64,000 bases of DNA from Rhodamnia argentea (taxonomy: Eukaryota; Streptophyta; Magnoliopsida; Myrtales; Myrtaceae): assembly GCF_020921035.1 (NCBI RefSeq), contig NC_063160.1:21115595-21179594 (forward strand). The letters run 5' to 3'. Position 1 is the first letter of the stretch. Each line of letters starts with the position of its first letter. Under the pieces are notes generated by a model. That model worked only from the letters and a program-made list of their open reading frames with translations, did no database searches and was not told the DNA's origin. Shown here piece after piece: positions 6,206-59,792 of this stretch. Made by a program: the position numbers and the translations under genes.

Positions 6206-6246
6206 ACAAGAACCTAAGAGGGAAATGTAGTGCAATATATTTTGGA

Positions 6247-7246
6247 GGGAAAATGCCAAAAAAGAGCCCCAAGTGTACTTATTTTCTCAATTAAGGGCCT
6301 GAAGTGCAACTTGTGTCAAAGAAGGGCCTCAAGTGCCTTTTTTTATTCAAACGAGGGTCCGAACAGGGACATTTTTGTCTTTTTACATTTTGTGATTGTT
6401 TTCCTTTTTTTTCTTATGTTTTTTTCCTTTTCTTCTTTCTTCTTCCCCTTGCACCGTCTCGTCGTGAGCCGCGTGGCCTCACCGGTCACCCGCGAGGGCC
6501 TACCTTGCGACCGCCGGGCGAGGGGAGCCCTTGCCGATCGAGCGAGGTTGGCCCTTGTTCCGCCTAGGTGAGGGGCCCGCCTCACGGCCGCCGCGCGAGG
6601 GGAGCCCTTGCCGGATCGCTTGAGGCAAGCCCTCGCTCCGCCCGGGCGCGGGCCTCGCCCGCGACGAGGAGAGATTTTGCAAAAACTTGGAGAGAGAAAG
6701 TGGGCCGTAGGGCGCAAACGGGCCCGAGGACCCCTGCCTCGGCCTCTCCGCCTCGCGTCCTCGCCGCCCGCGATCACGGCCGCTCGGCTCGCGGCTCTCT
6801 CGTCGTTGGCCGCAGACGGGTGCAAGGTCACTTTAGCCGTGATGAGCGACGATCTCGAATGCGAAGCTCGCCCTCAACCAGATCTTGACTCCCGCCGTCG
6901 CCTCCACCTCGGCCTCGTCGCCGCCGTCACCACGTCCTCGCCGTCCGCCACTTCGGCGACTCGGCCCGGCCTCGCTCGAGCCGAGTGAGGCAAGCCCTTG
7001 CGACTACTCAACCCACGGCCACTGGTGATGAGGAAGAGAACAAAAGGAAACAAGAAAGAAGAAAAGGAAAAAAACAGAAGAAAAAAAAGGAAAACAATCA
7101 CAAAATGTAAAAAGACAAAAATGTTCGTGTTCAGGCCCTCGTTTGAATAAAAAAAGGCACTTGAGGCCCTTCTTTGACACAAGTTGTACTTTCAGCCCTT
7201 AATTGAGAAAACAAGTACACTTGGGGCCTTTTTTTGGCATTTTCCC
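6247..7246. mobile_element. Mutator-like DNA transposon, non-autonomous, 1,000 bp
   Basis: The element begins GGGAAAATGCC and ends GGCATTTTCCC. It has long terminal inverted repeats of about 196 bp (6247-6443 and 7051-7246) that match closely. A perfect 9-bp target-site duplication, TATTTTGGA, flanks it at 6238-6246 and 7247-7255. A 9-bp duplication with long inverted repeats is the signature of Mutator-like elements. The 600-bp interior is strongly GC-rich and contains a repeated GCGAGGGGAGCCCTTGCCG phrase (near 6518 and 6595). It encodes no transposase that I can see. The open frames inside are products of GC richness. The interior could be captured host sequence (Pack-MULE), but I recognise no donor. 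Confidence 0.88.
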
Positions 7247-7264
7247 TATTTTGGAGATCTATCG

Positions 7265-7631: not shown

Positions 7632-7856
7632 ACATATCTAACCCACCTCCTCTTCTCCTGGTCGATGGCTTGACTTGTTCTGTAACCAGAATGAACCAGC
7701 TTATAAGATAACGTTAAATAGATGCAAAGCACCAACCAAAACACCTTGTTTGTCATAACCAAGTGCATATAAAGTTGATGCATCTCGCAGGATTGTGGGC
7801 CTTAGGTCGTCTCCTACATGCACATGCAGTGATGCACTTGCCGGTGGCCGGCGATT

Positions 7857-8205
7857 AGGGGTGTCAAAAAAGCCCGCGTCGGCCTGACCCGGGCCGGCTT
7901 GAAAATTCATCCTAATTTTCGGGCCTTTCGGACCGGCTTGGTAATGTTAGGATCGGGCTAGGTGGGGCCGGCCCGATTCTCGCCATTTTTTTTTACTCAC
8001 GTTTTCTTTTTAATTTATCTTATTTTCATTTTCATTTTTTATATTCTTTCATTTGAGCGACATGTCCAGTGATTTTGATTCAAAAAGAAGAAAAAAAGAA
8101 AAGAAAAAAGAAACCAACCCGGCCCGAAGAGGGTTCGAGCCAAGTCGGGCTTGGCACTGTTTAGTTTCGGGCCGGGCTGAGACCCGGCCCATTAACACCT
8201 CTACA
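7857..8205. mobile_element. hAT-like MITE
   Basis: It starts AGGGGTGTCAA and ends TTAACACCTCTACA. GC-rich 'cgggccgg' blocks sit inside both ends. The direct repeat GGCGATT flanks it (7850-7856 and 8206-8212), extending to 8 bp with one mismatch, which fits a hAT-type insertion. The middle is AT-rich and non-coding. Confidence 0.6.
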
Positions 8206-18045: not shown

Positions 18046-19485
18046 TTAATTTGTGACCTCAATCCAACTACATCCAGTATCTTTCTTCAACCTTTTTTCT
18101 TTCATTAATCCCCTCAACGATCCAATCTGATCCCACATGCCAAATCTAGCATATAAGTTTGATAGCAATATATAAATTCCAGCATTTTGAGGATCCCACT
18201 CAAGTGCTCTTTGAGCAGCCAATTTTCCCAGTTCAACGTTCCCACTGTCCAAGCAAGCGTTGAGAAGAGCCCCCCACATCGAATCAGTACCGCCAAACCC
18301 CTTCTGAAGCATCTCGTCAAGAAGCTTCCATGCTCTATCCAACTCACCTGCCCTAGAAAGAAGATCCACCAGACAACTGTAGTGCTCTTGGGTAGGCTTC
18401 ACGTTGTACTCATTTCGAATTGATTCGAAAAATTCAATCCCAAGTGCCACTTTACCAGTTCGAGCACAAGCTGCAATAACAGTCACAAAGGCTACCTCAT
18501 CTGGCTTGATCCCTTTTATCAGCATTTCTTTATACAATCCTATCACCTTGCCATAACAACCATTTGTTCCGTAAGCATCCAACATGGAAGTCCAAAGAAC
18601 AAGGTCATTCTTTCCCTCTCCTCCATTTCCAGCCAAAGCAAATACTTGACAAGCCTTTTCTACTAAGCCACATTTACCATACATTTCAATCAGTGAACTC
18701 TGCAAAAACAAATCGTTCTCAGAATCGTAAACTGTGCGAACAAGGCAGCCATGAACCTGCCTTCCCAACTCAACTGCAGACAGTCCAGTGGATGCCCTTA
18801 ACATCGCTGACAATGTGAAATGATCCTGATGTAAATTCAAGAGAGGCATGTTTCTAGCCACTTTGAGCCCCTCTGACCACATCTTAGCATCGATATAACC
18901 AGACAGTAGAGCATTGGCACAAACAGTGTTCTTTACAGGAATTTCATCAAACAGCTGTGCCGCATCATCAACCAATGATGATTTTGCATACAAATCGATC
19001 AGAGCACCATTAACAAAAACACTGGACGACCAACCTAACCTCAAGATGAGGGCATGCATCTGTTTACCGAAAATAACACCCTCATCGTCGGACGAAGCCG
19101 TCAAAGTGCTGCATAGAGCATATGAATCTAAAAGAACACCATTGAAATGCATGAAAGAGAAGGTCTTTAGTGCATATGGGGCAAACCCATTTCGAGCAAA
19201 CTGAGATATCAGAATATTGAAGGGTACTGGGTCTCTGTTGGGGATCAAGAACTTGCACAACTTAGTCAATATTTGAAGGTTGGTTCTTGGAACGCATGCA
19301 GCGTATGAGAAGATGAGTTTGGCTTGGATGCTTGGGGACAAGAGAAGTAACCCCGTTGTGAGCAGGTGGGCATGCCATTTCTTGATCGATGTCAGGGTCT
19401 TGGTCCGTGGGGAATGATGCAAGAAGCGACCGATCGCGTTAACACTCCATGAACTTTGGTTGGACATGGGTAATGCTATTAGCAC
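18046..19485 (-). CDS. Pentatricopeptide repeat protein, PLS class, E subgroup
   Basis: This intronless gene encodes 479 residues. Tandem PPR motifs run from about residue 85 to 395. Recognisable repeat starts include PVPFNILISQFARNGFAPYA, SSVFVNGALIDLYAKSSLVD, NDLVLWTSMLDAYGTNGCYG and EHYSCLVDLLSRAGELDRAW. Alternating motif lengths indicate the PLS class. An E domain follows (about 400-476): SMWGALLNACLDSGNVELGK to KKDTGCSWIEV. The protein stops just after this, so there is no DYW deaminase domain. PLS-E proteins usually bind organellar RNA and help C-to-U editing with a DYW partner supplied in trans. The N-terminus could be an organellar targeting peptide. I chose the first Met; Met7 is an alternative. 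It is short for a PLS protein, so it may have few targets. Confidence 0.93.
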   Translation of the reverse strand: MLIALPMSNQSSWSVNAIGRFLHHSPRTKTLTSIKKWHAHLLTTGLLLLSPSIQAKLIFSYAACVPRTNLQILTKLCKFLIPNRDPVPFNILISQFARNGFAPYALKTFSFMHFNGVLLDSYALCSTLTASSDDEGVIFGKQMHALILRLGWSSSVFVNGALIDLYAKSSLVDDAAQLFDEIPVKNTVCANALLSGYIDAKMWSEGLKVARNMPLLNLHQDHFTLSAMLRASTGLSAVELGRQVHGCLVRTVYDSENDLFLQSSLIEMYGKCGLVEKACQVFALAGNGGEGKNDLVLWTSMLDAYGTNGCYGKVIGLYKEMLIKGIKPDEVAFVTVIAACARTGKVALGIEFFESIRNEYNVKPTQEHYSCLVDLLSRAGELDRAWKLLDEMLQKGFGGTDSMWGALLNACLDSGNVELGKLAAQRALEWDPQNAGIYILLSNLYARFGMWDQIGSLRGLMKEKRLKKDTGCSWIEVTN

Positions 19486-24878: not shown

Positions 24879-25169
24879 TCACGATCGACTCAACTGCGAA
24901 GTGAGGGCAATGAATGTGTCTTCTGTGCAAGGAATTGTGATACCGCCCATAGGATGATCGAAGCCAAATTCTTCCTCGGCCTTGCGGAGCAAGTCCTGAA
25001 ACAAAGGCTGATTCAAGAACGATACTGGCACTACATATCTCTTCTTCTGTCTTTCTCCAACATAAACTGCAAGGTAGCCTTTTGGGACCGAGACTGCTTC
25101 CCTGCTGATGAGAAGAGATCGCCGGAGAATCTGCTTGGCATGCATAATAGTTGACAAGTGAATGGCCAT
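24879..25169 (-). CDS. SAUR: SAUR protein, cluster type B
   Basis: This intronless gene encodes 96 residues from [20 protein letters not shown]. The frame is open for 69 more codons upstream, but that part overlaps the TATA box and matches the leader of its paralogue, so I start at 25169. The core is [55 protein letters not shown] and LTSQLSRS. It is the unit 2 counterpart of SAUR 21547. A TATATATA box lies at 25286. The auxin-response core of its paralogue is changed here (GAAACA), while the CACATG box at 25374 is kept. Confidence 0.95.
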
Positions 25170-25285
25170 ATGTTCCCCCCGGAGAAAATGAAGATGGCAA
25201 ATTCTTTGATGAAGAAAAAAAGAATGTTTTGCTAGCTGAGAGACCTCAAGGGCTTTGGTAATGACTGTGAAAGAAGAAATGCATC

Positions 25286-25294
25286 TATATATAA
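25286..25294 (-). promoter_or_regulatory. TATA box of SAUR 24879
   Basis: TATATATAA lies about 117 bp before the chosen ATG, which supports that start choice. Confidence 0.7.
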
Positions 25295-25399
25295 GATATG
25301 GGAATGTTAGAACGAGTGGTGTGGGAGGCATTTGGTCTCCGGTTTGAGCAGGAAACATATTCACCTGACGTTTCACATGGTCCTGTCTTCCTACTCATC

Positions 25400-27287: not shown

Positions 27288-27554
27288 TCACGATTGACTC
27301 AACCACGAAGTGAGGGCAATGAATGTGTCTTCTGTGCAAGGAATTGTGAGACCGCCCATAGGATGATCGAAGCCAAATTCTTCCTCTGCCTTTCTGAGCA
27401 AGTCCCGAAACAAAGGCTGATTCAAGAACGATACCGGCACTACATATCTCTTCTTCTGTCTCTGTCCAACATAGACTGCAAGGTAGCCTTTTGGGACTGA
27501 GACCGCTTCTCTGCCAATGAGAAGAGATTGGCCAAGGATCTGCTTGGCATGCAT
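27288..27554 (-). CDS. SAUR: SAUR type B copy with lost start codon and TATA region
   Basis: The SAUR core is intact: [54 protein letters not shown] and LTSWLSQS. However, the codon matching the ATG of its paralogues is GTG here (27576-27578). The next in-frame ATG is at 27554, which would give an 88-residue protein lacking the first eight residues. The frame is also open upstream to an ATG at 27662. Compared with SAUR 21547, about 95 bp holding the TATA box are missing at about 27654. The GAGACA (27663) and CACATG (27685) boxes remain. It could be a young pseudogene or a gene using a new start; the open frame argues for recent loss. Confidence 0.55.
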
Positions 27555-27699
27555 AATAGTTAACCAGAGAATGGCCACATGTTCCCCGGAGAAAATGAAG
27601 GAGATGGCAAATTCTTTGATGGAGAAAGAAATGTTTTTGCTAGCTGAGAGATCTTTGAGCAAGAGACATATTCACCTGAAGGTTCACATGGTCCCGTCT

Positions 27700-37966: not shown

Positions 37967-38242
37967 CTACATGCCGCAAGTGAGATCAACAAAGACTTCT
38001 TCTCTGCAAGGGATTGTGAGGCCACCCGTAGGATGATCGAATCCAAACTCCTCCTCAGCCTGACCAAGCAACTCTTGGAAGGAAGGGTGATTCAGGTAAG
38101 AAACTGGTACCACGAATCTCTTCTGCTTGTCTCCTACATAAACAGCGAAGTGCCCTTTAGGAACATCTGCATTTTCTGTTGATGAAAGAATACGGCGAAG
38201 CACGTTCTTAGCAGAAACCATCTTGGGAAAGCGAATGGCCAT
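37967..38242 (-). CDS. SAUR: SAUR protein, right end of the cluster
   Basis: This intronless gene encodes 91 residues from [19 protein letters not shown]. The frame is open for 81 more codons upstream, but these cover the TATA box (38382) and leader, so I start at 38242. The core is [54 protein letters not shown] and [11 protein letters not shown]. All blocks are intact. It belongs to the same clade as its neighbours but is not part of the 4-kb duplication. A CACATG box lies at 38493; the GAGACA core is not present at the matching place. Confidence 0.96.
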
Positions 38243-38381
38243 CAGTCTTAGAACTGTATTCAAGAAAACGTTGTGTTCTTTTTTCTTGCAAGGGATGGGA
38301 ATGAGATAGTATGAAAAATGGAAGCTTTGAGAGCGCAGTTTGAGATTCTGTGTTGGTGGTATGCTGGGTAGTGTGTGCATG

Positions 38382-38389
38382 TATATATA
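38382..38389 (-). promoter_or_regulatory. TATA box of SAUR 37967
   Basis: TATATATA on the minus strand, about 140 bp before the chosen ATG. Confidence 0.65.
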
Positions 38390-38499
38390 GATTAGTAGAT
38401 GATAGGAACGTTGTTGTGCTGACTTGAATGAATGATGAGTGGAGGAATCAGCATGCAGGGCCAAGCTTAGAGGGACAAGGACCACGAGAGATCACATGG

Positions 38500-40493: not shown

Positions 40494-41907
40494 AATATAT
40501 GATTATCTTAGATAGATGGGAATCATTCAAATAAAAAAGTTTCCTTTTTCGAAGACCAAATTTCCAAGTGACGTGAGAAGGCGGAATAACTCCTCGGAAA
40601 TAAAATCCTCCGTGATGTATATGAAGATCGACCCACATCTCATTGTTTTGTAGCTTATTTCATTCATATACAATTAAGTTGTGTCATTTCTCCTTATAGT
40701 GGTTTCGCTTCGTGGATAAACATCAAGGTTCATGGACAAGTTAGCAACTTCGCACGGTCGAGGTAGGCCAATCCTTGCTCCTTTGACTCCCTTATCCTAT
40801 CATCTCCTACTTGCTTCATTGAATACAATCATCTTAGCCGACATATTCTTTAATCCAGCTTTCAACTTATTCTTTAAGGTTATCCACCATGTGTAGTGAA
40901 GAGCATGCCTGCTGAAGCGGGCGGGTCGGGTCGGGTCGAAAATAGTCCGATCTAAATTGACACATTTTTACTCCGATTTGACCCATTTCCATGCATTAAA
41001 AATTTAATGACACATGCCCATATACAACTGGATCAATATTGCTAAAACATTTATATATTTCATCAAATTTAGGAAACTCTTGTCCAAATTAATGTGAAAA
41101 CACGGAGTGAGAGAACATGAGAACGAGTGATGGTGAGAGAGAGTCATAGAGGTGAGTTGGGTCTAAGTAAGTTGCAAACTCATATTAACACCCATATTAA
41201 ACCCATTTAAGACCCATAGAGTTGGGTCTAAACCCATTTATGACCCATGTAACAACCCAACCCACCAGGACTACCAATACTGATTAAGAAATGAGTTTAT
41301 GACCCATTTTGATAAATCTTGTGAAGAGGCAATCACAAAAAATTAGAGAGGTGCATATACACACATATGGACACAAGACCTTTGCAGGTCTATACAAATC
41401 CGACAACTTCACCTTCTGCTCACATCTCACGCCAAAAATCGAAATTGAATGATTCGGGATACGACTCGGCCATCAACGTAGAGCTAGCTAGCTGAGGGAG
41501 AGGGGTCGGGTCTTGGCTGCGGGGCACCTACAGAAAAAGGCAAAGGAACTAAAACGAGGGTACGTTCAAGGCTTCTTTGATCTTTTTGGTAATCCCACAT
41601 GACTTTCGCAGCATATGCTTTTCGATCATTACCAAAGAAGCGGCTGTCGTGCCAAGAACATGCAGCCCCCAAGAGAATATAAATGGAAAAAATAAGGAAA
41701 CACAAGGGCAACCAACCCACATAAAAATTAACTATTTTTAGCACCTCCTGCTTGTTTCCCCCAAGTTGGTAGGGCATGATGTCCTGAAAAACGTAGGGCA
41801 TAAGCATGTGGACTTTGCACCTGATGTGTTCCTAAACTCCCTTCTATTGACCAATATTTTATCCAAGACTTTGACATGCTAAACTCTCCCTCCCTCCCCC
41901 TCTCTCT
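40494..41907. other. Intergenic region with 'gacccat' repeats
   Basis: No gene is supported. From 40915 to 41310 the phrase 'gggtcggg' and later 'gacccattt' recur many times, suggesting a decayed repeat. The rest is ordinary AT-rich 5' flank of the SAUR at 42023. Confidence 0.35.
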
Positions 41908-41914
41908 CTATATA
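41908..41914 (+). promoter_or_regulatory. TATA box of SAUR 42023
   Basis: TATATAT right after a CT-rich stretch, about 110 bp before the ATG. Confidence 0.65.
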
Positions 41915-42022
41915 TGCGCGTGCTTTGCTCGGGGACCAAAACCATACAAAGAGCATCCGAGAACCAAAGTCGTTTCGCTCAAATCTTCGACTAGTAGTAT
42001 CCTTCCAGATATCATAAGAGAG

Positions 42023-42319
42023 ATGGGCATCCAACTTATGGGAATCGCTCATGCGAAGCAAAAGCTCCAGCGCACCCTGTCAGCCCGAATACGAGCAATG
42101 TCGGCCGTGTCCAACGTGCCGAAGGGCCACTTCGCGGTCTACGTCGGGGAGTCGAAGAAGCGGTTCGTGATCCCCCTATGGTACCTCAAGCACCCGCTGT
42201 TCCGGAGCTTGTTGGACATGGTCGAGGAGGAGTTCGGGTTTGATTGCCCGACCGGCAGGCTCACCATCCCGTGCAGCGAGGACTACTTCACTAGTCTAAC
42301 TTCTGCCTTGAGTTGTTGA
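42023..42319 (+). CDS. SAUR: SAUR protein, plus strand
   Basis: This intronless gene encodes 98 residues from MGIQLMGIAHAKQKLQRTL. The frame is open 49 codons upstream but overlaps the TATA box, so the later ATG is chosen. The core is [54 protein letters not shown] and a C-terminal LTSALSC. The usual Asp-His after FGF is Asp-Cys, and the usual Ala before EEE is Val. Its third codon positions are far more GC-rich than those of the minus-strand cluster. It faces away from the cluster. Confidence 0.96.
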   Translation: MGIQLMGIAHAKQKLQRTLSARIRAMSAVSNVPKGHFAVYVGESKKRFVIPLWYLKHPLFRSLLDMVEEEFGFDCPTGRLTIPCSEDYFTSLTSALSC

Positions 42320-46139: not shown

Positions 46140-46144
46140 ATGGT

Positions 46145-47593
46145 TGTCGCGACCTTCAAAAAATAGACAAGTTGATTTTCGGGCTAATGGATTATCGGGT
46201 TAATTAATTAACTAACCTAACTCGGACTCTCCCAAGTCCATACCAAATCGCAACTTAAGGTTCAAATAATTAACATGCAACGTGTTTTGAATTTGGAGTC
46301 GCCACTAATCATTTTCGGTAGGTTGATTAGAAACCTAAATAAAATAGCGGGAGAAACTATCTTATTTCCGCGAACCGGAGATTTTGAATTCGGGGATTTG
46401 GTTACGTCGGATTTCTCTAACGCCCTTTCGGTACCATTTTCATGAAAAATATTTGATTTGGCAATTTTGATGGATTTTGCTTGAAATTCAAAGATGCAAT
46501 TTTTTTGGTTTTTTCTTCTTTTTTATGGGGATGTAAAACATTGAACTTTGTACGATATACACCATGGGTGATTTAGAAAGAAAGAAAATGCAGCCAATCA
46601 CGAGTATTTATAAAAATAAATTAACATGTAATAATGCTAAAATTTGAAACACGTGGCATGTCTAAAATAAACAAACAAATATTCAAACCAAACGATTACA
46701 TTTTTGTAGATCGAGATGGAAAGGATTACCTTCTATTACACAAAATCTTACTCACATACACGTTATAGTTCCCTTCAAGATCTCGGAGCTGGAAGAACGC
46801 GGCTGTCGTCGAAAATGGCAAGCAATGGCCTTGTTAGGTTGCGAGGGGCGAAATATGTGTCGGGACTCGTCGAAGATGATGCTCGACTAAAACACTTTTC
46901 TTCACTCTCGAATTTTCCCTTCTGATTTTTCTCAAGAACTCTCTTTTTCCTCTCTAAAAATTCCTCTCAAAAACTCTCTCAAAACTCTCTCAATTCTCTT
47001 CCACTCTTCCTAAAAAACTCTCTCAATTCTCTTCTACTCTCTCTCTCAATTCTCTTCCACTTCCCCCTTCTAAAACTCTTCTCAAGAGCTCTCTCTTTTA
47101 TAGGCAAAGTTCTTCATCCTTCATTCTTCACCTTCATTTCTTCACCTTCCATCTTCATCTTCTCTTCTTCATCTTCATTTCTTCACCTTCCATTTTCATC
47201 TTCCCTTCTTCATCTTCATTTCTTCACCTTCCATTTTCATCTTCCCTTCATTATCTTCCCTTCATCATCTTCCCTTCTTTATCTTCTTTTCATTATCTTC
47301 CCTTCATCATCTTCCCTTCTTCATCTTCTTTTGGTATTTGCAATACGGTCCCTGAAGTTCCAAGTATTTGCAATACGGTCCCTGAAATTTTAAGTATTTG
47401 CAATACAGTCCTTGAAGTTTCAAATCTTCTCGGTGTATTTTTCCATCCCGTGCCTAGTCTAGACGCATGCTAAATTAAGTGTTCTGCTTGCCCGATTATA
47501 TGCCAATGCAATGTACGCTAAAAATAAATATGTGAGATGATTTTTTATAATTTTTATGCAAAAAATAGATTAATCAAAATTTAGGCGTCAACA
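46145..47593 (-). repeat. LTR (3' LTR of the element), 1,449 bp
   Basis: TGTCGCGACC to GGCGTCAACA. It holds a CT-rich minisatellite at about 47105-47335 made of 'cttcatcttcatttcttcac'-like units. It is nearly identical to 58336-59787. Confidence 0.95.
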
Positions 47594-47606
47594 GCTGCCC
47601 CTCTTT
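47594..47606 (-). other. Polypurine tract
   Basis: AAAGAGGGGCAGC on the minus strand, directly against the LTR, as expected for the second-strand primer. Confidence 0.6.
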
Positions 47607-47966
47607 GAGTGGAGGCTCGTAGAGGTTCCGCTCAAAGACAAAATTGAATCCTAAATTTTGACAAGTGCAAATTATGGATGAACTTTTTGGCGGGAGTTTT
47701 AATCCCATTTTTTATGTAATGAAGTGATGCATGATATGCAAGACTCGTAAATAACACGTGTCATAATTTCCCTTTTTCATGTTAGAGAAACCCGCACATG
47801 GATCGCATACAAGAATACCTGTTTTACCAAATTTCTCGTAAGCTAATGGTTCTCTTAATTTCCAAGCTTCTTTTTGCGGATGCAAGGATTTTAAGGTATT
47901 TGGCCTATCTCGTTATCGGAGACTTCTCCCTAATGCAAGACAGGCGCAAGATATGTGTGTCGTTTG

Positions 47967-48330
47967 AGATCACAAGAGCTACGTCGTTGTGAGTCGAAAG
48001 AAGTGGGATCAAGTTCACAAGAGCTACGTCGTTGTGAGTTGATTAAATGTCGAAATCGCCAAGTGCATATGTCTTCACGATTCGATAAAGGGGGAACCAA
48101 AATCATAAGAGCTACGTCGTTATGATTTGGTTTGGATCAAAAATATGGGTGCTTATGTCTTCATGATTTGATAAAGGAGCCGAAAATCATAAGATCTATG
48201 TCATTATGAGCCGACTAAAGGTCAAGATCACCAGTGCATATGTCTTCGTGATTCGAGACCGAAATCATAAGAGCTACGTCGTTATGATTTGATAAGATGT
48301 CAAGATCGCCCGGTGCATATGTCTTCACGA
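47967..48330. repeat. Tandem repeat with internal palindromes
   Basis: About five imperfect units share 'aagagctacgtcgtt' and, in most, 'gcatatgtcttca'. In three or more, the core sits between ATCATAA and TTATGAT, so each unit can fold as a hairpin. It lies close to the 3' LTR. Variable tandem repeats in this position are known from Tat/Ogre elements. Confidence 0.8.
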
Positions 48331-49686
48331 CTGACGGAAGAGGCATCTTGCCCGAATTGAACAATGTTTGATAGGAGCACCATTGAATGGAATCGATAAG
48401 TACAAAAGGGGCATATTGCTCGAATTGAATCATAACAACTATCATCGAAGAGTTGTTAATTTGAAAAGGGGTTCGGAAAACTTACCCGGGTTCTCCAAAC
48501 GATTAATCAAGGAACGAAACAGATTGCTCAGTATCGTACCTGGTAGGCATTTGCCAGCAAAACTTGCTCATTCAATAATCCTTGGATGAATTTCGAGACC
48601 TTGGGAGGGAACTCGAACATCGGGAATGTATTACGTATCATAGAATGTCGAGGTAACACACACAAACATATTCAACAATGAGTATAATGCAATCACTCAT
48701 ACTATGGTTCATGCACAACCATTCCGTCAAGTTTGCATTACCAATTTTGTCCAGAGAGGTTCTCACATGACGAATACCTCGAATGTGAGCTGAATGGGGG
48801 ACTTCGGTCCGAAAGGGCTTTCTCTCACTCTCGAGAAAAGCTATTTATCCTGTCTGCAGGATTCAAGAGAAATCACTCAATCTTTCCATCATCGCATTCG
48901 ATAAGGATCCAAGTAATCTCGCAATTGATACGATCGAGCCGATCCGGAGGTCTTGATTAGGACCGTAATGAGGGCTAGGTCAAAGGTTTACAAAGGGGAC
49001 TCTAATTGAGTCAAGGCCGCTGAAATGAATTTCTTCATCATCCGCTCCGATTTACAAGTCAAGAGCCCCGCAAAAATGAGAGAGAAATAATCTTGCTCGA
49101 ACTTCTTCGAGTGATGCTTAAAATCATTTAACTCTACGTTAACTCAAGTGCCCTAATCGAAGAGACTTTGGAGGGTTATAACGTAGGCTAGGATTGGGGC
49201 CGAGGAACGAAAAGGCTCATTTTGGCTCGAAATTAAATGAGAAGGGGCTTGACGTTGGTGATCATCGTCGACTAGCCACCGATCTTGGTCTTCCGGAAAT
49301 GTCTTCGGAAAGAATTCCATCATTGAATGAGGGATGGTAGTTTTCTACTGAAAATTGCACTTTGCAAACCGACTTCTTGGGGAGTCTTCTTCACAACAAG
49401 TGTCTGTCAAGGATTTGCAAGAGACACAATGCAAACATGTACATGGAATTTACAACTTAACATGCAAAAATGTACATTCAAAATTCAGAAGTACTTTACA
49501 AATGAATGTGCATTGGCCTTACTTTTGGTAGGCACTTTGCTTTTCCTATGCTTGAAATTTTCATATGAGATCAGCCTTTGCTTTTTTTTACTCCCGACTC
49601 TCATTTTTCTTTTTTTTCTTTTTTTTTTCGAGAAGAGATTTCTTTTCCTTTTTCTTTGAGAGCTCTTCGACATCTCTTTATTTTGC

Positions 49687-49696
49687 TTTTTTTTTT

Positions 49697-49732
<36 letters not shown>
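49687..49732. repeat. Poly-T tract
   Basis: About 35 uninterrupted T after one G, within a longer T-rich region (49600-49790). Confidence 0.9.
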
Positions 49733-50959
49733 CGAGAGTGGGCCCTTCTCCTTTAAGCTGAGTTTGCCTCTCCTTTTTTTTTACAATCCCATGATTTTGA
49801 ACCGGGAAGTACAACAAACATAAACATTTACAAAGAAAAATTATGTAAACATAAAAAATATAGCATACAATAAATGAGTCCATTCGGGAATTCTCTGTTG
49901 ACCCGACCATCTCCAATTCTAATCCTTGGGAAAATGCTATCTTCGTCTTTGGAATGAGCAAATGATCACCAACAGGGGTTTAAGAAATGAATTTGCAGGC
50001 TCAAGTGGGCTATGCAAAGAATGAAGTGTATAGATAGAGAAGTGAATGCTCTTCATCATCCTAAGGCACTTGAACTAAAATTCGAGTATAAATGCAAAGA
50101 AACACCCGAAGATTAATGTTAGTCCGAGCAAGAAAATTTCTAACCATTTACCTCGTGTTGCTGCTAGAATTAACCCGTCTGGACCCCGATGTGGAGTGGT
50201 TCTTGACAGGGGTAAAGAAATGAAACCATCGCTCAAAAGGGGTAATCAATGGATCACATGTAGTGTTTAGATAGAGAAATGAACGCCTCCGTCACTTCGG
50301 TTATCGTACCTTTCGCGAGAAAACTCTTTACCTCGGGGAATGCGGAATTTTGCCACCATTCATCTCGCCTGAAAAAATTGGACGTGTTTGGGAAATGATT
50401 GCCTTTCATCATCCTGTCATGCCCCATTCCATACATTTGATGTATCTTATGTAGTTCATGTTCCTTATTCAGAGTTGGTAAATTAAATACGAGGAACAGT
50501 CATGCACAAACTATGCAATGTATGAGTGTTTTCGAGCATATAAAATGTAGCAACTTTTTATCTTGGTGCAAGCACGTAAGAAAATTCTTAAGGGCGTGAA
50601 TTGTGAGTTGCCCCTGCTCATGCAAATGAGTTGCAAAACTTCATTATCTAGTTTGAGACATGAGATTGTCAAAGGCTCCAGGAATTTCTCATTTCATTAA
50701 TTTTTCGGGAGAAGGGATACTTCCCTATCCGGAAAGGCGGTGACCTTCGTAAAAATCAAAAGGGAAAGCGTCAATGTACGTTCTCACGTTCTAAACGAGT
50801 TGAAACGATACCGCTTTACCCTTGTACGAATTTCTTGTGAACTTTGAATTGAAAGGATCAACTCATCTGGATTGGATTGTATGTCCGGGATGTTATCTCT
50901 CCGGTCTTGTAACCATCCGGGCTGAGTTTCAATCGGCATTGAACTGCGAAGCAAAAAGG

Positions 50960-51055
50960 GTTTTATTAATCTTTGTACATTGATGCCAAATCCCGGGATC
51001 GAACCTGGGACGCCTCGGACCACTGTCATTCCCCCAACCACTAGGCTGTAGTGAT
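50960..51055 (-). mobile_element. Probable tRNA-derived SINE head
   Basis: On the minus strand an A-box-like sequence (CAGCCTAGTGGTTGGGG, about 51033-51049) is followed about 30 bp later by a strong B box (AGGTTCGATCCC, about 50995-51006). This is the RNA polymerase III promoter layout of plant SINEs. There is no intact tRNA fold or 3' CCA. It is nested inside the LTR element; its 3' end is not clear. Confidence 0.45.
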
Positions 51056-51583
51056 GTTGGCGTCCACGGTTGGTTCGCTTTTTGCTATATTGTTCTCAAA
51101 ACAGTTGGCAATCTCCCGTCGAGAATGAAATAAGCTTAAATCGAGTTTGAAATGATTGAGAGCCAATTGGGACGATACGGAGTTACCCATCTTTGAGTCC
51201 GCTTGGCCTTTTACTCGTATTCTCCCAAGTAAGGCTATTCGGAATCTCTCTTTACGGGCGTTCAGGGGCGTCGTCCACAAATTGATTTTCTACAGGCCTA
51301 GCTTAACAAGGAACTCACGCATTTGATAAGGGAGGAGAAAATTCGCCCTTTATCTCTAGGCAAATTCTAGACAGCTAGAAAGTAAAAAAAATATCCCACG
51401 CGGGGGAACTATACATGGAATCAAAGAAGTATTCATGCGAGATTGGTTCCACCTCTCTTGGCTGGCCATTCCAATGATCGATCGATTTTGTCTTGGATCA
51501 TACACCAACGATCGTTGTTCAAGGATCCATAATCACTTGCTTCGGATCACAACTCGGGAGGTCCTTCACTCCGAACCGGGCGA

Positions 51584-52479
51584 TCAAGGTGGTGAGCTCA
51601 TCATCAAAGTAATCTTCGATTGATACTCGAATTGGGTAGTGTTACTTGCTAATACTAGCGACGGATTTCCCACTTTGTTTTCACCGTGAGCGATCTGACC
51701 CCTTGAGCTTGAGCTTCCGCCGTTGCTCGGAAACTTGTAGGGATGATCAACTGGTCTGCTGCTAGAACCACCAGCGGAAGGTTGGTATGACATGTATTCT
51801 TGATTGGGAAGTGGCCGAGTACCTTTTGCTCGGTAGATTTTCCCGGTATTGATCTTCCAATCAACTTTGGTCCTGTCGTGTTGGTCCCAACCTCGCATCG
51901 TGCTTCCTCGACTTATCTCTAACCCTTTGAAGGTGATTCGTGACACTTTGCATGGTGAGTCCGTCTATATTCATTATTCGTGTACAGCCATTGGTCGTCT
52001 TTGAATTGATTCCTAGCCGTCGAACCGCCTCAATGAATATAGAATGAAGCTTGGCGGACCAAAGGGGCCTTTTCTTTTGGACAAAATCGTCGTCATCAGC
52101 TTGGTCGTAGTTTTTTTGTTCGAGTAATTGCTTCCTTACAGCATGCTGCCAAATGTTTTGGAGCATTCGAACGCAGATCGGCTTCAGTAGGACGTCTCGA
52201 GCACCATGCAATGTGGCCCTCGTTATGAACTGGCGATCATTACTTGCCGATACTACGATGACCTGTATGTCTAACTCGGAATCAATGATCTTTAAGAGAC
52301 TCGAAACCGTCCATATTGATCCCTACCACGGCTGTGACGACGATGTCAAACTCTTCTTTGTCTCGCCTCAGCACTTCTAAGGCATCCGTTGCCTTCGCAT
52401 AAGCAAAAACCCCGTACATGCAACTTCTCAAGATAGCAACGAGGATTGAGAGGGAAACGGGGTTGCCATCAATGGCCAT
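51584..52479 (-). pseudogene. Fragment resembling a type-B response regulator, inside the LTR element
   Basis: On the minus strand a receiver-like block comes first (ILVAILRSCMYGVFAYAKAT, then DALEVLRRDKEEFDIVV and MDGFESLKDH). Next comes a receiver C-terminal block (GARDVLLKPICVRMLQNIWQ). A GARP/Myb-like DNA-binding block follows: KKRPLWSAKLHSIFIEAVRR, then MNIDGLTMQSVTNHLQRVRD. Receiver followed by GARP is the layout of type-B ARR cytokinin-response transcription factors. The receiver reads as a pseudo-receiver. It lies in the sense direction of the retroelement. It appears to be captured host sequence, partial and decayed. Confidence 0.7.
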
Positions 52480-52883
52480 GACTCGTGAGATCCTCGGGAT
52501 AGGAAGGTTCCCATACTTCCGCTTGGAATGAACGTGTTTTTCTTTTAAAACCTTCCATATGTAGACCGAAAATGGCTGTTTCGACTAGAGAATGAGCTTT
52601 AGATGTTCTTGGACTTGCAAAAACAAATTGCCCGAAAATCACAAAAGCGATGATGGCCTTTCGTGACGGATTCTGAAGGTCGCTAGGTGTATGGAGACTT
52701 CAAGTTCTTTATAAACTTCCTCTCTCTTTTTTTTTATTAGTCTTGCAGACGGGTTTTCGCTTTCTCTACGAAAGAGGACAGCTTTTTCTCTCCTTTTCGG
52801 TCTTAGTGCCTTGGATCCGTTTCGTAATAACTCTCATCTCTCACTCCATCTATCATCTTCTTCCTTTTCCGATATGGAGGAGC

Positions 52884-53080
52884 CCTCAAATCTTTTCACT
52901 TTCTCTACAAACGAGGCAGTTACTTCCCTCCTCAAATCTTTTCGCTCCCTCCTACGAGCGAGACAGTTATTTCCCTCCTCAAATCTTTTCACTTCCTCCC
53001 GAGGCGGTTATTTCCTCGAATCTTTTTGCTTTCTCTAATAACGAGGCAGCTATTTTTTTCTCAAATCTTTTTGCATCTAT
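52884..53080. repeat. Short tandem repeat 'cctcaaatctttt'
   Basis: Four to five units of about 45-55 bp share 'ctcaaatcttttc', 'gaggcag' and 'ttatttccctc'. A related phrase recurs near 54250. Confidence 0.75.
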
Positions 53081-53459
53081 CTATGTGAAGGCTTTTAATG
53101 CTTTTCCTTTCGGCGTTCGGTCAAATCTGACAAAGAATTCACGCATTTAAGCATGATGATATTTGCGGATAGTATCGTTCTTTGCCCCTTGATTAACTCT
53201 AGGCGTAAAAGGAAGAATGTCTCACATGGGGACTTTGTAACAAACAGTACATTCATTCACGCATGTCTCTACTTCTCTTGAGAATTCATAAGGGCTAGCT
53301 AGTAATGCTCAAAAGAGTGATATTTTGAAAGCCCATAATAAAAACTCAAGCTTCATGTAGGCTCTGATTCGGAGTTTCATCGGTGTTGAATTGGCCGATC
53401 GTGACATCGTGGAAACTCCAATTGTAGTGATGCATGTCACTTCCCTCGAAGGGCATCGG

Positions 53460-54237
53460 TTACGCCTCCGCAAGGCCGACTTTTCGGGATGTATCCCCAA
53501 CGAAATCCGATTGTGCGAGAACTTGCTCGGGAGGATGAATCGATAAATGAGCATTTTCAATGCTCGGATGTGGCTCATCAAGGAACATGCCACCAAAGGT
53601 GATGGGGTTGCTGCGAGACATGGCAAATAGCGATGTTAAGAGCATCCCTATACCTCTTGATCTCTCGCTCGAAGCTCTTCATTTTCTTCCTTTAGAGACG
53701 CAAGTTCATGACTTTCACTTCGAACCTTCACTCGGGCCCGCTTGTTTTGAAACCAAAACCCGACCTTCAAGGGCTCCATTCCTAGCTTCCGGCTCAACTC
53801 ATTTTTTCGTTTCCCGTTCACGTAAGGGCACTCCTTAAAGGCAGCTTCGAGCTCTTTGATTTGATGTTTTCTTTTCGGGGTTGACTACGGCTGCTGCTGC
53901 TGCTATTGCTATTGTTATGCTTGTTATCGAGATCTTGAACTTCACCGCCAAGGGAGTTGGGTTTTACGGCTTCGGCTGGATCCGCCTCGAAATTCAGCGG
54001 TTCATTCTCGGGGATGTCTAGGTTGGTTGCCTCCAGGTAAGTCTTGGTAGCCTCCAAACATGTTGGATTGAAATACTTCTTACGCCTTTTGTTCACTCTA
54101 CTCTCCGTCGTATGCTTACTCTCTCCAAATTCTTCGAGTAAACATGCATGTTCCGCAGCCTCCCTTTTAACGTGGATGAAAACCACTAAGCCGGTGCTTC
54201 TCCCAAGATTTCGTGTTTCCCGCTCTGTCTTCTTCAT
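53460..54237 (-). pseudogene. Fragment resembling a class IV HD-ZIP homeobox gene, inside the LTR element
   Basis: The minus strand encodes a serine- and asparagine-rich stretch, then a homeodomain: [41 protein letters not shown] leucine-zipper-like segment follows ([16 protein letters not shown]). Further on comes FGGMFLDEPHPSIENAHL, recalling the segment after the zipper in class IV proteins. LFKECP-type wording and KVxFWFQNxR are hallmarks of HD-ZIP IV (GL2/ATML1-like) homeodomains. I see no START domain. It is a partial, decayed copy in the same orientation as the retroelement. Confidence 0.65.
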
Positions 54238-54555
54238 TTCCTTCTAACATGGTGGGACCCTCAAATCTTTTTCTGCAAGTATGCTTGTCCCTCTTTTAAT
54301 ATGGCGGAACCTTTAAGTCATTTCGCAACTTTTCGAATTTCGTGAGCCTCGAGATGGTAGATCCGTGATTCACGGACGAAACGTCCGTAGTTTTACCTGC
54401 AGATAATTAACTCGGCCCCCACAATAATTATTGCTATGACTTTTTCTGCCCTTTAAATTAGGATTTAACGCCGAGACGATTATCGCTTCCATATCCTCAT
54501 CTCCAACCTTCTAAGCACTCTTTCGCATCCACTGTTTCAAAGAACTTCAGCAACA

Positions 54556-55289
54556 ATGGCCTCCCTCCCCGCACGCATCTTCTCGGCTGAAGTTTTGGCC
54601 AAATGGGAGAAACTTTATAATCTCTTAGGCCGGGGCTACTCTTATATAGCCAACCATCCGGAGGTCGAAACCGAAATCCGTCTCATGTTTACGGATATGG
54701 ACACCGTTTCTATTCAAGGTACCAAGTTAGAAGAGGAATATAGGATCTTCCCTACCCTCTTTACTAACTTCCCGGGAGGCTTACAATCATGCTTATCAAG
54801 ATGTTACTTTGGCCTATCTTGTGAGGGCACGCTATCGGGATCGGACGGATAACTTGATGTTGGCCGATCTTGTAGCCGACAATTATAAGAAGGCCCTTGA
54901 CTACGGTAATGATCAAGTCTCACTCGCCGATTCGTGAGAGGGGGAACTTGGTGGAACGCTTGGCCATGTCCCGGACCATCTTCGAGCGCGATCCGCTCGA
55001 TATTGTTTTGAAATTTCAATGCTCATGGCTGGAAGAAAGGATGGACGATCTGACCCTGGATATAGCCCGCGGGAGAATGCTGATCCATGACTTGGAATCT
55101 GGCGTCGAGTATCACGAGGACGGGGTGGCCAAGCTTAAAGAGAAATGTGAGCTCCTCCTCTTTAAGTCGGCGGATCTCGATTCTCGAAGCGATCGGTGTA
55201 GGCGGAGCATCAACCGTATGGAGAGTCAGTTGAACTCCTTTGTGATGCTCATTAGGGCTCGGTTTGGCTTTACGTTCCCACCCCGATGA
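54556..55289 (+). other. Antisense reading frames within the LTR element
   Basis: Two neighbouring plus-strand frames oppose the element's coding direction. One begins MASLPARIFSAEVLAKWEKL (54556-54852). The other (54897-55289) is rich in charged, coiled-coil-like residues (DIARGRMLIHDLES, KLKEKCELLLFKSADLDSRS). I recognise no family. Extra antisense frames between pol and the 3' LTR are known from some Tat-lineage elements such as Grande. The region counts as part of a fossil element. Confidence 0.4.
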
Positions 55290-55888
55290 TCCGTTTGTAA
55301 GGCTCTCCGATGGATGAAACGAATGCAAGTTTTTACTGATTTCATCTTGGTCGTCATATTTTTTGGCAAGATAACCCCTTTTACTCTGTGAATATGTAAA
55401 TCTCACGCTACCGATGGCTGATTCAATTGGGCCAGAGAGACCCCCCATTCGAAACGATCTCTCGAAAAAAATTGGTAGCGATGAAACAAACGAATGCCCA
55501 AATGTGAACAACTTGTGAATCCGTATTAATATTATAACTCGATTATGAAAACATCGAGTAAATCAAGTATAATATTTCTTTACTGAGTCGAATTCACTGG
55601 GTTGGTAAATACACGACCATCCATCTCGGCCGAATCAAAGCACCACCAGGGAGCACCTTCTTTACTATATATGGACCACCATAGTTTGGAGCAAACTTCC
55701 CTTACGGGAGTGGGACTATTGGCAACAATTTTCGCAAGACCAGGTCATTGATCCGAAAATATCGAGGCCGAACTTTTTTGTTGAATGAATTAGCAACCCT
55801 CTGCACGATAACACTCGGCCATGACATATAGCCTTAATTCTCTTTTCATCGATCGATTCAATTGGCTTGCCCTCTCTGCTGGATCCAT

Positions 55889-56128
55889 TCAGCTTCCGTC
55901 AAGATAGCTTGAGACAAGATACGTAAGGGAAGGAATTTCCACTTCAACCGGTAGAACAGCCTCCATTCCATATACAAGAGAATACGGGGTTGCCCCCGTA
56001 GATGTCCGGATCGAGGTCCGATACGCCATAAGTGCAAATGGCAACCTCTCATGCCAATCGCGATAATTCTCGGCCGTCTTCGCTAAGATTTTCTTAATAT
56101 TCTTATTGGCGGCTTCTACTTGCTCCAT
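55889..56128 (-). pseudogene. Integrase C-terminal core piece of the LTR element
   Basis: The minus strand reads VEAANKNIKKILAKTAENYR, then WHERLPFALMAYRTSIRTST and GATPYSLVYGMEAVLPVEVE, the standard end of a Ty3/gypsy integrase core. It is part of a broken element. Confidence 0.85.
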
Positions 56129-56327
56129 TCATCGAGGACGATATGGGGAAGAGTTCGGATGCTTGATCTTGAATTCTTTGAACAATTCGTCCATTAGCTT
56201 GTTGTTCAAGTTTGAGCCATTGTCGGTGATTATGGCTTCGGGTGAACCATATCGAGCGATGATATCTCGACGGATAAATTTCACGATATTTCGTGCTTGT
56301 GACCGCTAAATAAGATGCGGCTTCGAT

Positions 56328-56560
56328 TCATTTAGAGAAATAGTCAATTGCTACCAAGATGAATCGATGCCCATTGGATGCTTTAGGATTGATAGGGCTG
56401 ATAACATCAATGTCCCACATAGAAAACGGCCATGGTTCGGATAACTGATGCAACTCGTTCGGAGAGACATTAATCTTGTCACCATGAATCTGACATTTGT
56501 GACAACTTCGGACATGCTGAACCGGGTTGGAAGTTCCATCATACTTTTCGAAGTCGGGCA
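56328..56560 (-). pseudogene. Integrase zinc-finger/core piece of the LTR element
   Basis: The minus strand reads CHKCQIHGDKINVSPNELHQ, then WPFSMWDIDVISPINPKASN and GHRFILVAIDYFSK. The wording fits the Tat/Athila branch of Ty3/gypsy. Confidence 0.85.
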
Positions 56561-57109
56561 TCTTGAACTTTTCTCGCACAATGATCTTTGAAAAGACAGA
56601 CGTGTCGACCGGGGTATGTTGTGAGTCCCCTCGACCTCTCGGATCCTCTCGTTCCATTTGGGCCAATAGCTTGGCCGTATAACCATTCAATCCGGGGCCA
56701 CGGGGCTGGCTTGAGGGATTGGGACTACGGGCGGCGTGCTCGAGCTCACGCCCGTGATGATCACATCCTCTACCGGCATTGTCGGATAGGGAGTAGCTTC
56801 CGGGGCTTTACCGAAATTGTCCGTAAGAGGAACTAGAGCAGGAAGCGGCGGGATGGCGGCGGATGATTGAAGTTTGGCGGTGAAGGCGGCCATAATTTCT
56901 TCCATCTTTCGGGACATCATCCCTTCAAAGCGCTCGATCAAGGAGCCAAGTTTCTCGTCTAGGGCAAAGACCGACGATAGCGTTGATGTCGGCCATCCTC
57001 TTTGCGATCGATCGAGTAATGTGTAGAGGATCCGTGACAAATTACCTGTACGCAGTAACAAACCCAAAATGAGTATAGGGAGCAAGAATAGCGAGCCGGC
57101 CCATGACAT
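56561..57109 (-). pseudogene. gag N-terminal region of the LTR element
   Basis: The minus strand contains SRKMEEIMAAFTAKLQSS and a proline-rich stretch. Nearer the integrase piece lies FKMPDFEKYDGTSNP, a block typical of the start of Tat/Ogre gag. Only part of gag is recognisable. Confidence 0.6.
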
Positions 57110-58314
57110 CCCTCTAGACTCAAACGAACAAAGTGTTTATGGCCAAAGGATTGAAACATGTAATTTTCAGTTTGTCCGCTTTACGAAAAAAATTCGTATT
57201 AATCCGTACGTTGATCAAAACATGTCCAAATTTTACGAGCTTATGGTTGAGAAGGTGATGAACAACTTTTATGTTGGCCAATCAGACTAGAAATGCACGG
57301 ATCAAATCAGTTTAATGTGTCTCTCCAAAACAATCACGTTCAGAAAACTGTTATAACCGCATGTTGTTGAAAAAACGAAGGGCCATATTAAATTATGAAT
57401 TTAATTCTGAAATTTTGTAAGATATTAGTTGAAACATAGGTCTACAACTTTCATGTTTGTCACTTACTCAAAGCTCGATCGTAGAATTTAGTAAAAATCG
57501 CACAACAGGAATAAGCCAAATCAGAATTGAGGACAACCGATGGAATTGTAAAAGCTGCGGAAGCAAAGTGCGAAATTGGAAATAAGACAATGAAACTTCT
57601 AAACAATCAACCTAAACCATGGACCGGCCCAAAATAAAAATGAGATAACAGGGTACAAGAGACAAGAAATTACCTCTCATACGAAGAAAATGCCAATCAC
57701 AAAGACATGCGCATGAATTGTGAGTTTAAATCTTATTATATCTATCCAAAAGGCTTTTGCAAAGTGAAATGATGAACGAAACGACATGTCGCAGCCTCGC
57801 GCACAGTCATCATGACTAGTCGCAACCTCGCGTACAATAGTCATGACTAGTCGGGTCCAATCACTTCGGCTTGGTTCGGTCGACAAGGGCAATTCTCATG
57901 CATCGTAGCCTCACGTGTATGAGAACGATCCTTGAGCCATTTTTTAGAAAAATTTTCGGGATCCAAATGGGATAACCTTTAGCGAAACCTTACTGCCAAG
58001 GTTAAAGAACCATCTAAATACCATCTTAAAACTATTAGTGTGACCCAGGTCCGGTCACTGGTTGTGTGCGATGTAGTGCAAATACGATAAATCATGCACA
58101 ACAATTAAAGGCAAACACCGCTTCAATGATTCAAAAGTTAAATCACAATTCCAATTCACCAAGCCTGCAAAACAAAGGGTTAGCCGATCACTCCTTCCCT
58201 TATAACTCCCAATCTGCAAAAATATTTAACACCTAAGAATGAGAATTCAACCAAAGTTTACCAAATCAAGTGATTTCTTTTTCATGAAATTATCCGGCCT
58301 AAGTCCTCTTTGGA
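57110..58314. other. 5' untranslated region of the LTR element
   Basis: Lies between gag and the primer site on the element's strand. No coding region is recognised; AT-rich. Confidence 0.5.
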
Positions 58315-58332
58315 TCCCCAGCGGAGTCGCCA
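58315..58332 (-). other. Primer-binding-site-like sequence
   Basis: TGGCGACTCCGCTGGGGA on the minus strand, three bases from the LTR. It starts with TGG, as sites pairing with a tRNA CCA end do. It is not the initiator-Met type. Confidence 0.6.
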
Positions 58333-58335
58333 AGC

Positions 58336-59787
58336 TGTCGCGACCTTCAAAAAATAGACAAGTTGATTTTCGGGCTAATGGATTATCGGGTTAATTAATT
58401 AACTAACCTAACTCGGACTCTCCCAAGTCCATACCAAATCGCAACTTAAGGTTCAAATAATTAACATGCAACGTGTTTTGAATTTGGAGTCGCCACTAAT
58501 CATTTTCGGTAGGTTGATTAGAAACCTAAATAAAATAGCGGGAGAAACTATCTTATTTCCGCGAACCGGAGATTTTGAATTCGGGGATTTGGTTACGTCG
58601 GATTTCTCTAACGCCCTTTCGGTACCATTTTCATGAAAAATATTTGATTTGGCAATTTTGATGGATTTTGCTTGAAATTCAAAGATGCAATTTTTTTGGT
58701 TTTTTCTTCTTTTTTATGGGGATGTAAAACATTGAACTTTGTACGATATACACCATGGGTGATTTAGAAAGAAAGAAAATGCAGCCAATCACGAGTATTT
58801 ATAAAAATAAATTAACATGTAATAATGCTAAAATTTGAAACACGTGGCATGTCTAAAATAAACAAACAAATATTCAAACCAAACGATTACATTTTTGTAG
58901 ATCGAGATGGAAAGGATTACCTTCTATTACACAAAATCTTACTCACATACACGTTATAGTTCCCTTCAAGATCTCGGAGTTTGGAAGAACGCGGCTGTCG
59001 TCGAAAATGGCAAGCAATGGCCTTGTTAGGTTGCGAGGGGCGAAATATGTGTCGGGACTCGTCGAAGATGATGCTCGACTAAAACACTTTTCTTCACTCT
59101 CGAATTTTCCCTTCTGATTTTTCTCAAGAACTCTCTTTTTCCTCTCTAAAAATTCCTCTCAAAAACTCTCTCAAAACTCTCTCAATTCTCTTCCACTCTT
59201 CCTAAAAAACTCTCTCAATTCTCTTCTACTCTCTCTCTCAATTCTCTTCCACTTCCCCCTTCTAAAACTCTTCTCAAGAGCTCTCTCTTTTATAGGCAAA
59301 GTTCTTCATCCTTCATTCTTCACCTTCATTTCTTCACCTTCCATCTTCATCTTCTCTTCTTCATCTTCATTTCTTCACCTTCCATTTTCATCTTCCCTTC
59401 TTCATCTTCATTTCTTCACCTTCCATTTTCATCTTCCCTTCATTATCTTCCCTTCATCATCTTCCCTTCTTTATCTTCTTTTCATTATCTTCCCTTCATC
59501 ATCTTCCCTTCTTCATCTTCTTTTGGTATTTGCACATACAGTCCCCGAAGTTCCAAGTATTTGCACATACGATCCCCGAAATTTTAAGTATTTGCAATAC
59601 AGTCCTTGAAGTTTCAAATCTTCTCGGTGTATTTTTCCATCCCGTGCCTAGTCTAGACGCATGCTAAATTAAGTGTTCTGCTTGCCCGATTATATGCCAA
59701 TGCAATGTACGCTAAAAATAAATATGTGAGATGATTTTTTATAATTTTTATGCAAAAAATAGATTAATCAAAATTTAGGCGTCAACA
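58336..59787 (-). repeat. LTR (5' LTR of the element), 1,452 bp
   Basis: TGTCGCGACC to GGCGTCAACA, nearly identical to 46145-47593. Most differences cluster near 59525-59580. Confidence 0.95.
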
Positions 59788-59792
59788 ATGGT

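Follow-up and report, generated by a model that had tools for sequence, protein, structure and literature searches.

Structure of the element

The window (the whole stretch of DNA analysed, 64,000 nt) contained an LTR retrotransposon of 13,643 bp on the minus strand, at 46145-59787. Read 5' to 3', it consisted of a truncated gag-like frame, integrase-like remnants, an antisense frame, an HD-ZIP (HD) remnant, a response-regulator (RR) remnant, a stretch with no recognised gene and the 3' LTR. The features are listed below with strand and basis.

46140-46144, no strand: target-site duplication ATGGT, left (read in the sequence)
46145-47593, minus: 3' LTR, termini TGTTGACGCC...GGTCGCGACA (LTR alignment)
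47594-47606, minus: polypurine-tract-like stretch adjoining the 3' LTR (read in the sequence)
51587-51964, minus: type-B response regulator cargo, tail open frame (alignment to relatives; no Pfam match)
51864-52322, minus: type-B response regulator cargo, second half of the receiver, then the GARP region (Pfam; GARP via alignment to relatives)
52285-52584, minus: type-B response regulator cargo, first half of the receiver, in another frame (Pfam)
53463-53678, minus: HD-ZIP cargo, stretch after the zipper, no START domain (Pfam scan)
53651-53884, minus: HD-ZIP IV cargo, homeodomain and start of the zipper, truncated here (Pfam)
53821-54243, minus: HD-ZIP IV cargo, N-terminal open frame (no Pfam match of its own; alignment to relatives)
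54469-55286, plus: antisense open frames between the integrase remnant and the cargo (no Pfam match)
55892-56807, minus: integrase-like remnants beside the truncated gag-like frame (no Pfam match; likeness to L042, where rve was found)
56690-57136, minus: gag-like open frame (no Pfam match here; the related copy L026 matches Retrotrans_gag)
58315-58332, minus: primer-binding-site-like stretch, 18 nt, after the 5' LTR (read in the sequence)
58336-59787, minus: 5' LTR (LTR alignment)
59788-59792, no strand: target-site duplication ATGGT, right (read in the sequence)

The two LTRs were 99.45% identical over 1,452 columns (5 mismatches and 3 gap openings), and the 5-bp duplication ATGGT flanked the element on both sides. 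With the primer-site-like stretch, whose sequence may be of the tRNA-Arg type looked for in Tat elements, and the purine tract, all the marks of an LTR retrotransposon were present, and the 13.6-kb LTR element of the sequence-only reading was borne out. The same reading had proposed a young insertion, and the LTR identity agreed with this. Herbs have substitution rates of 7e-9 to 1.3e-8 per site and year, and trees are slower; at the herb rates, 5 differences in 1449 LTR sites gave an insertion age of about 0.13-0.25 million years. Inside both LTRs, a unit of about 14 nt was repeated in tandem (47070-47317 and 59262-59509).

No protease or reverse transcriptase was seen among the open frames of the window element, of which selected ones were run through Pfam. 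The antisense frames gave no Pfam match at E 0.05 (two frames) or at E 0.01 (the third), nor did ten further small frames. Two copies were read end to end, namely the window element and L042+L013. The latter had LTRs 97.8% identical and a CATCT target duplication, and was 89% identical to the window element over the 5' part; in L042 the gag-like frame overlapped an integrase core (rve, Pfam). Neither reverse transcriptase nor RNase H was seen in these two copies, whose open frames were listed and in part scanned with Pfam. The family is probably non-autonomous and of the Ty3 type. In another copy (L044), a same-family LTR lay inside the spacer between HD and RR at 1505-2951, probably a nested insertion.

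Elsewhere in the window, SAUR (Pfam Auxin_inducible) open frames were found at 24879-25376, 27288-27662, 37967-38485 and 41876-42319 (region 20000-42400). Some of these lay inside large direct repeats of 72-99% identity (19.7-37.2 kb), with the element just beyond. A PPR protein of 479 aa with an E motif was encoded on the minus strand at 18046-19485, and an inverted repeat at 6246-7247 had 205-nt arms, 93% complementary and 592 nt apart.

Identity of the cargo

In the window copy, the homeodomain was matched by Pfam at E=3.6e-16 (53651-53884). A frameshift divided the receiver, and its two pieces scored below the Pfam cut-off (E=1.9e-3 and 2.7e-4). The regulator piece gave no Pfam match to GARP/Myb, and no START domain was found in the cargo pieces scanned. 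The window cargo nevertheless aligned along its length to relatives with open frames. Both cargo genes are broken in frame here, and the window copy is a later, broken passenger.

The relatives identified the two genes. The open-frame copy L007 matched Response_reg (6e-14) and Myb/GARP (1e-5) in Pfam. The order of receiver then GARP/Myb was also present in L010 and L018, with Myb below the cut-off in these two. The nearest solved protein was ARR1 for the regulator frames (1.8e-42) and PDF2 for the HD-ZIP frames (2.2e-28), and the PDF2 alignment spanned homeodomain and zipper in L007. The HD-ZIP cargo corresponds to the N-terminal half of a class IV HD-ZIP gene.

These results upheld the type-B response regulator and the class IV HD-ZIP that had been proposed from a receiver-plus-GARP layout and a homeodomain with zipper. 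They also upheld a two-gene cargo on the coding strand of the element, as both sets of frames are on the minus strand. The proposed extent, 51584-54237, fitted, with the HD-ZIP remnant reaching slightly beyond it, to 54243. The expected profile matches were obtained in part: the homeodomain and a weak, split receiver were found, but not GARP/Myb in the window piece, nor START. The description of the cargo as fragments held for the window copy, but not for copies with an open 336-codon regulator or 160-codon HD-ZIP frame.

Alignment to ARR1 showed that none of the 31 copies kept Asp at what is presumably the phosphoacceptor site of the receiver (28 had Ala, 2 Thr and 1 Pro). The conserved Lys of the receiver, on the other hand, was kept in all 31. 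With the phosphoacceptor lost and START lacking, we infer that, if translated, the cargo regulator would bind DNA independently of signals, and that the cargo HD-ZIP would do so without a START domain.

Copies in the genome

The genome searched comprised about 347 Mb in 74 contigs. A search for the receiver family gave 51 scored matches from 296 candidates, and most of the 51 spanned the receiver in one frame. Thirty-five of them were fetched. Five of these (L001, L002 and L039-L041) proved to be other receiver genes, and the remaining 30 were copies of the element, 20 fetched at 10 kb (ranks 3-22) and 10 picked by hand at 3 kb; together with the window copy they made up 31 rows. L039-L041 were considered as host type-B genes and rejected, as by eye they look like histidine-kinase-type genes.

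Protein searches, in which 120 of 820 regulator candidates and 150 of 463 HD-ZIP candidates were scored, gave at least 123 matches to the regulator, spread over 120 places, and at least 150 to the N-terminal part of the HD-ZIP. Among the matches listed, 67 of the 150 HD and 67 of the 123 RR formed pairs within 4 kb. In every pair the two shared a strand, with the HD first and the RR downstream; within 4 kb they were never arranged otherwise. The regulator and the 3' LTR were present in all 20 ten-kb loci, in pieces 70-96% identical to the window element, and the HD-ZIP in 19 (missing in L026).

The sequence-only reading had left it undecided whether capture preceded amplification and had called for a search for the same cargo in other copies. 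The recurrence of the pair in a large family shows that capture came before amplification and that the pair spread as a unit. When the 30 rows were classed by HD and RR identity, all four combinations were found (3, 1, 6 and 20 rows). This points to recombination between element lineages, by which the cargo was shuffled.

In several comparisons around L013 1111-3534, the cargo diverged faster than the adjoining noncoding stretches; the identity of L014 to L013, for example, was 0.758 in the RR, 0.806 in the spacer and 0.824 downstream.

Origin of the regulator from spliced mRNA

Host type-B genes matched the ARR1 receiver exon by exon, and element copies with a whole receiver matched residues 3-122 in one frame. 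In the six host type-B genes fetched, the match broke at one common position (…LPVI | VMS… in most). All six showed both exons, the second in part in L048, and GT and AG intron borders were readable in L045 and L046. The cargo regulator crosses this intron site, and it therefore came from a spliced mRNA.

Intron-containing parents, for which a search had been proposed, were thus found as a gene type for the regulator but not for the HD-ZIP: the 150 matches listed for PDF2 had the look of element copies, and none among them could be told apart as a host gene. A close host parent of the regulator was also not seen among the matches listed, in which element receivers were 34-46% identical to the ARR1 receiver and host exons 51-79%. 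Synonymous sites were saturated between the element receiver and three host genes.

Broken and deleted subfamilies

A search with the noncoding DNA downstream of the cargo was read in its best 40 of 498 candidates. Seventeen of these copies adjoined a listed regulator match, and 8 of the 17 matches were whole and free of stops. Nine of the other 23 were read: none had an intact regulator, 2 were frameshifted, with some frameshifts that the window copy and L043 also have, and 7 were deletion derivatives, in which the gag-integrase region or the HD-RR spacer was joined to the second part of the regulator. Junctions were common to L058 and L059, and to L051 and L053. Subfamilies with shared frameshifts also exist (the window copy, L043 and others).

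Propagating elements can thus lose the cargo. This suggested that any function of the cargo would be exerted in trans, in some lineages, or in the past.

The right junctions of the seven derivatives (L051-L054, L056, L058 and L059) all lay in mid-regulator (element 7716-7901), and the last 336-524 nt of the regulator were retained, as if the elements could not dispense with the stretch between these junctions and the 3' LTR.

Direct self-regulation through known sites in the LTRs was considered and was not supported. The sequence TAAATGYA, which we take to be the HD-ZIP IV (L1) box, occurred in none of 22 LTRs (20 loci and the two of the window). Motifs that we likewise assume to be type-B-regulator-like were at or below shuffled counts in the same 22 LTRs (shuffles from 20 of the 22).

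Probable upkeep of the reading frames

The regulator frame was undamaged (no stop or frameshift in the first 1,000 of 1,008 nt) in 7 of the 31 aligned copies, a sample biased to intact receiver frames in that 30 of the 31 were found via the receiver. The most distant undamaged pairs from this receiver-selected sample, all of which include L034, differed at 165-168 positions over 987-1002 nt. Without L034, the most distant pairs differed at 105-110 positions over 993 nt. From the shared-variant rates of noncoding DNA (0.118 and 0.158 disabling changes per substitution), 19-27 disabling changes were expected for the L034 pairs and 12-18 for the others. The first 160 codons of the HD-ZIP were undamaged in 8 of 29 copies, in which pairs differed at up to 64 of 447 nt (7-10 disabling changes expected).

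Of the variants common to at least three copies, 1 in 222 was a stop in the cargo, versus 33 in 650 in the noncoding flanks, read in forward frames; among singletons of the cargo, 21 in 318 were stops. Outside the receiver, none of 157 shared variants was a stop, versus 11 of 240 singletons (p=0.004). The HD-ZIP by itself gave 0 of 76 and 6 of 113, which was not significant (p=0.08).

Shared indels were multiples of three in 12 of 16 cases in the cargo (10 of 14 after neighbours were merged by hand) versus 1 of 19 in the flanks, and in 16 of 102 cases among cargo singletons. Indels in exactly two copies, outside the main count, were codon-sized in 5 of 14 cases in the cargo and 2 of 25 in the flanks. 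In the HD, which was not used to find the copies, 7 of 8 shared indels were codon-sized (5 of 6 after merging by hand).

The rates of replacement gave no such signal. In the true frames dN/dS was 0.57 for RR and 0.53 for HD, inside the control range of 0.48-0.76, and it was 0.85 for the GARP part. By depth, the values were also mostly inside the control ranges. The exceptions were one clade (6 pairs), with HD 0.426 and RR 0.500 against a control minimum of 0.504, and the deepest set, where HD (0.394) and the REC part (0.395) were near the floor (control minimum 0.387). A residue-class test showed no depletion of replacements at residues conserved in ARR1 and PDF2.

Several results are what would be expected if the cargo were a neutral passenger, captured once and hitchhiking ever since, with the open frames as survivors picked by the search: dN/dS equals that of noncoding controls, conserved residues are not protected, and subfamilies with broken or deleted cargo were amplified too. 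The finding of copies mostly through the receiver, and the presence of L034 in all of the most distant intact pairs, would also suit it. The undamaged regulator pairs and the codon-sized indels of the HD argue against it. In a rough estimate, rough because independent copies are assumed, 0.001-0.08 intact frames would be left among 500 at 75-82 substitutions per lineage, although 0.8-4.6 would be left at 40. We consider a neutral passenger rather unlikely.

With undamaged pairs 105-168 differences apart and 12-27 disabling changes expected, selection probably maintained the regulator frame during some of the family's history. This is a statistical reading of a receiver-selected sample.

Alternatively, the divergence and the frame upkeep might belong to a host pseudo-regulator gene, captured late and perhaps repeatedly. 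The distance of the element receivers from ARR1 relative to the host exons, the saturated synonymous sites and the lack of a close host parent among the matches listed would fit this. So would the spacer divergence without L034, about 0.07-0.08, which is below that of the regulator (0.11). In the L034 pairs, on the other hand, the spacer had diverged about as much as the regulator (0.150-0.157 versus 0.165-0.170). This suggested that the divergence between the most distant intact copies arose inside the element family, and late capture appears improbable.

That the cargo is a small-RNA source or decoy silencing host HD-ZIP IV and type-B regulator genes is very improbable: many copies do carry sense-oriented host-like sequence, but the three host genes compared differ too much from the receiver part to pair with it perfectly, and frame upkeep is not predicted.

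Proposed history

We favour, with moderate confidence, the reading that the window holds a recent insertion of an old, high-copy family with a captured regulator and HD-ZIP, of which the regulator frame was once under selection. The capture would have taken place in an ancestral Ty3-type element, whose reverse transcription most likely switched template to host mRNAs and so took in a spliced type-B regulator together with the N-terminal half of an HD-ZIP of class IV. The pair would then have been dispersed as one unit and reassorted by recombination, as the linked and mixed copies indicate, and selection would have held the regulator frame open for part of that time. Judging from the residues, loss of the phosphoacceptor and the absence of START may have left DNA-binding proteins blind to signals. 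Most likely these would have served in trans as accessory regulators in the nucleus, a role that is optional by now. Many subfamilies, that of the window among them, would have decayed later, as their frameshifts and deletions indicate.

A more specific version is offered tentatively. The cargo may be a two-protein module, a phosphorylation-blind cytokinin-type regulator with a START-less epidermal HD-ZIP, acting in trans in meristem or germline-founder cells and kept translatable while changing fast, like the accessory or transduced regulators of retroviruses.

Comparison with known systems

This large family, with its linked pair of host transcription factors and with some frames still open in deeply diverged copies, provides a natural test of the recruitment of host regulators by retrotransposons. 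Mobile copies of this kind can also inflate gene counts for response regulators and HD-ZIPs in such genomes. No report of a regulator and HD-ZIP pairing in plant LTR elements was found by title and abstract opening in the open-access literature.

Bs1 of maize is a low-copy element. As here, one LTR element carries segments of several host genes, but those of Bs1 are enzyme segments (ATPase, xylan endohydrolase and glucanase), while the cargo here is of transcription factors in a high-copy family (PMC13317346, PMC7264820).

No TRP28 or plant mobile domain, which are among the marks of the Tat lineage, was matched by Pfam in three antisense frames scanned. Placement in that lineage also rests on a phylogeny of reverse transcriptase, RNase H and integrase, and on a second RNase H. 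The family is classed here among gene-carrying LTR elements rather than as an established member of the Tat lineage. Extra frames are described as common in Tat, Ogre and Retand elements, mostly antisense with TRP28 in Retand, and with the plant mobile domain frequent in Ogre (PMC6317226, PMC11963269). These groups share with the present family a long region between pol and the 3' LTR, an antisense frame in it, accessory frames with a proposed regulatory role, and non-autonomous members. The Retand survey, in its account of that region, gives no known domains in sense frames, whereas both cargo frames here are sense and host-derived (PMC11963269, PMC6317226).

A screen of 121 angiosperm genomes, with reverse transcriptase as the marker, listed 15 domains, including PMD, G-patch, AIR1, DUF1409, YgdH, B3, ArgoL2, L26 and 2-ODD (PMC9289625). 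A term search of its main text returned no receiver, response regulator or homeodomain, and the two end-to-end copies of the present family showed no trace of its marker. Citrus Gypsy elements with YgdH/LONELY GUY and Aegilops elements with B3 resemble the present family in carrying cytokinin-pathway or transcription-factor domains, but these are other genes and, as described there, single domains rather than a linked pair (PMC9289625). The orchid Ty3/gypsy elements with a captured AlkB (2-ODD) also have an extra host-derived frame fixed across a large Gypsy lineage. Theirs is one RNA demethylase of demonstrated activity, whereas the present family carries two predicted DNA-binding regulators (PMC9289625).
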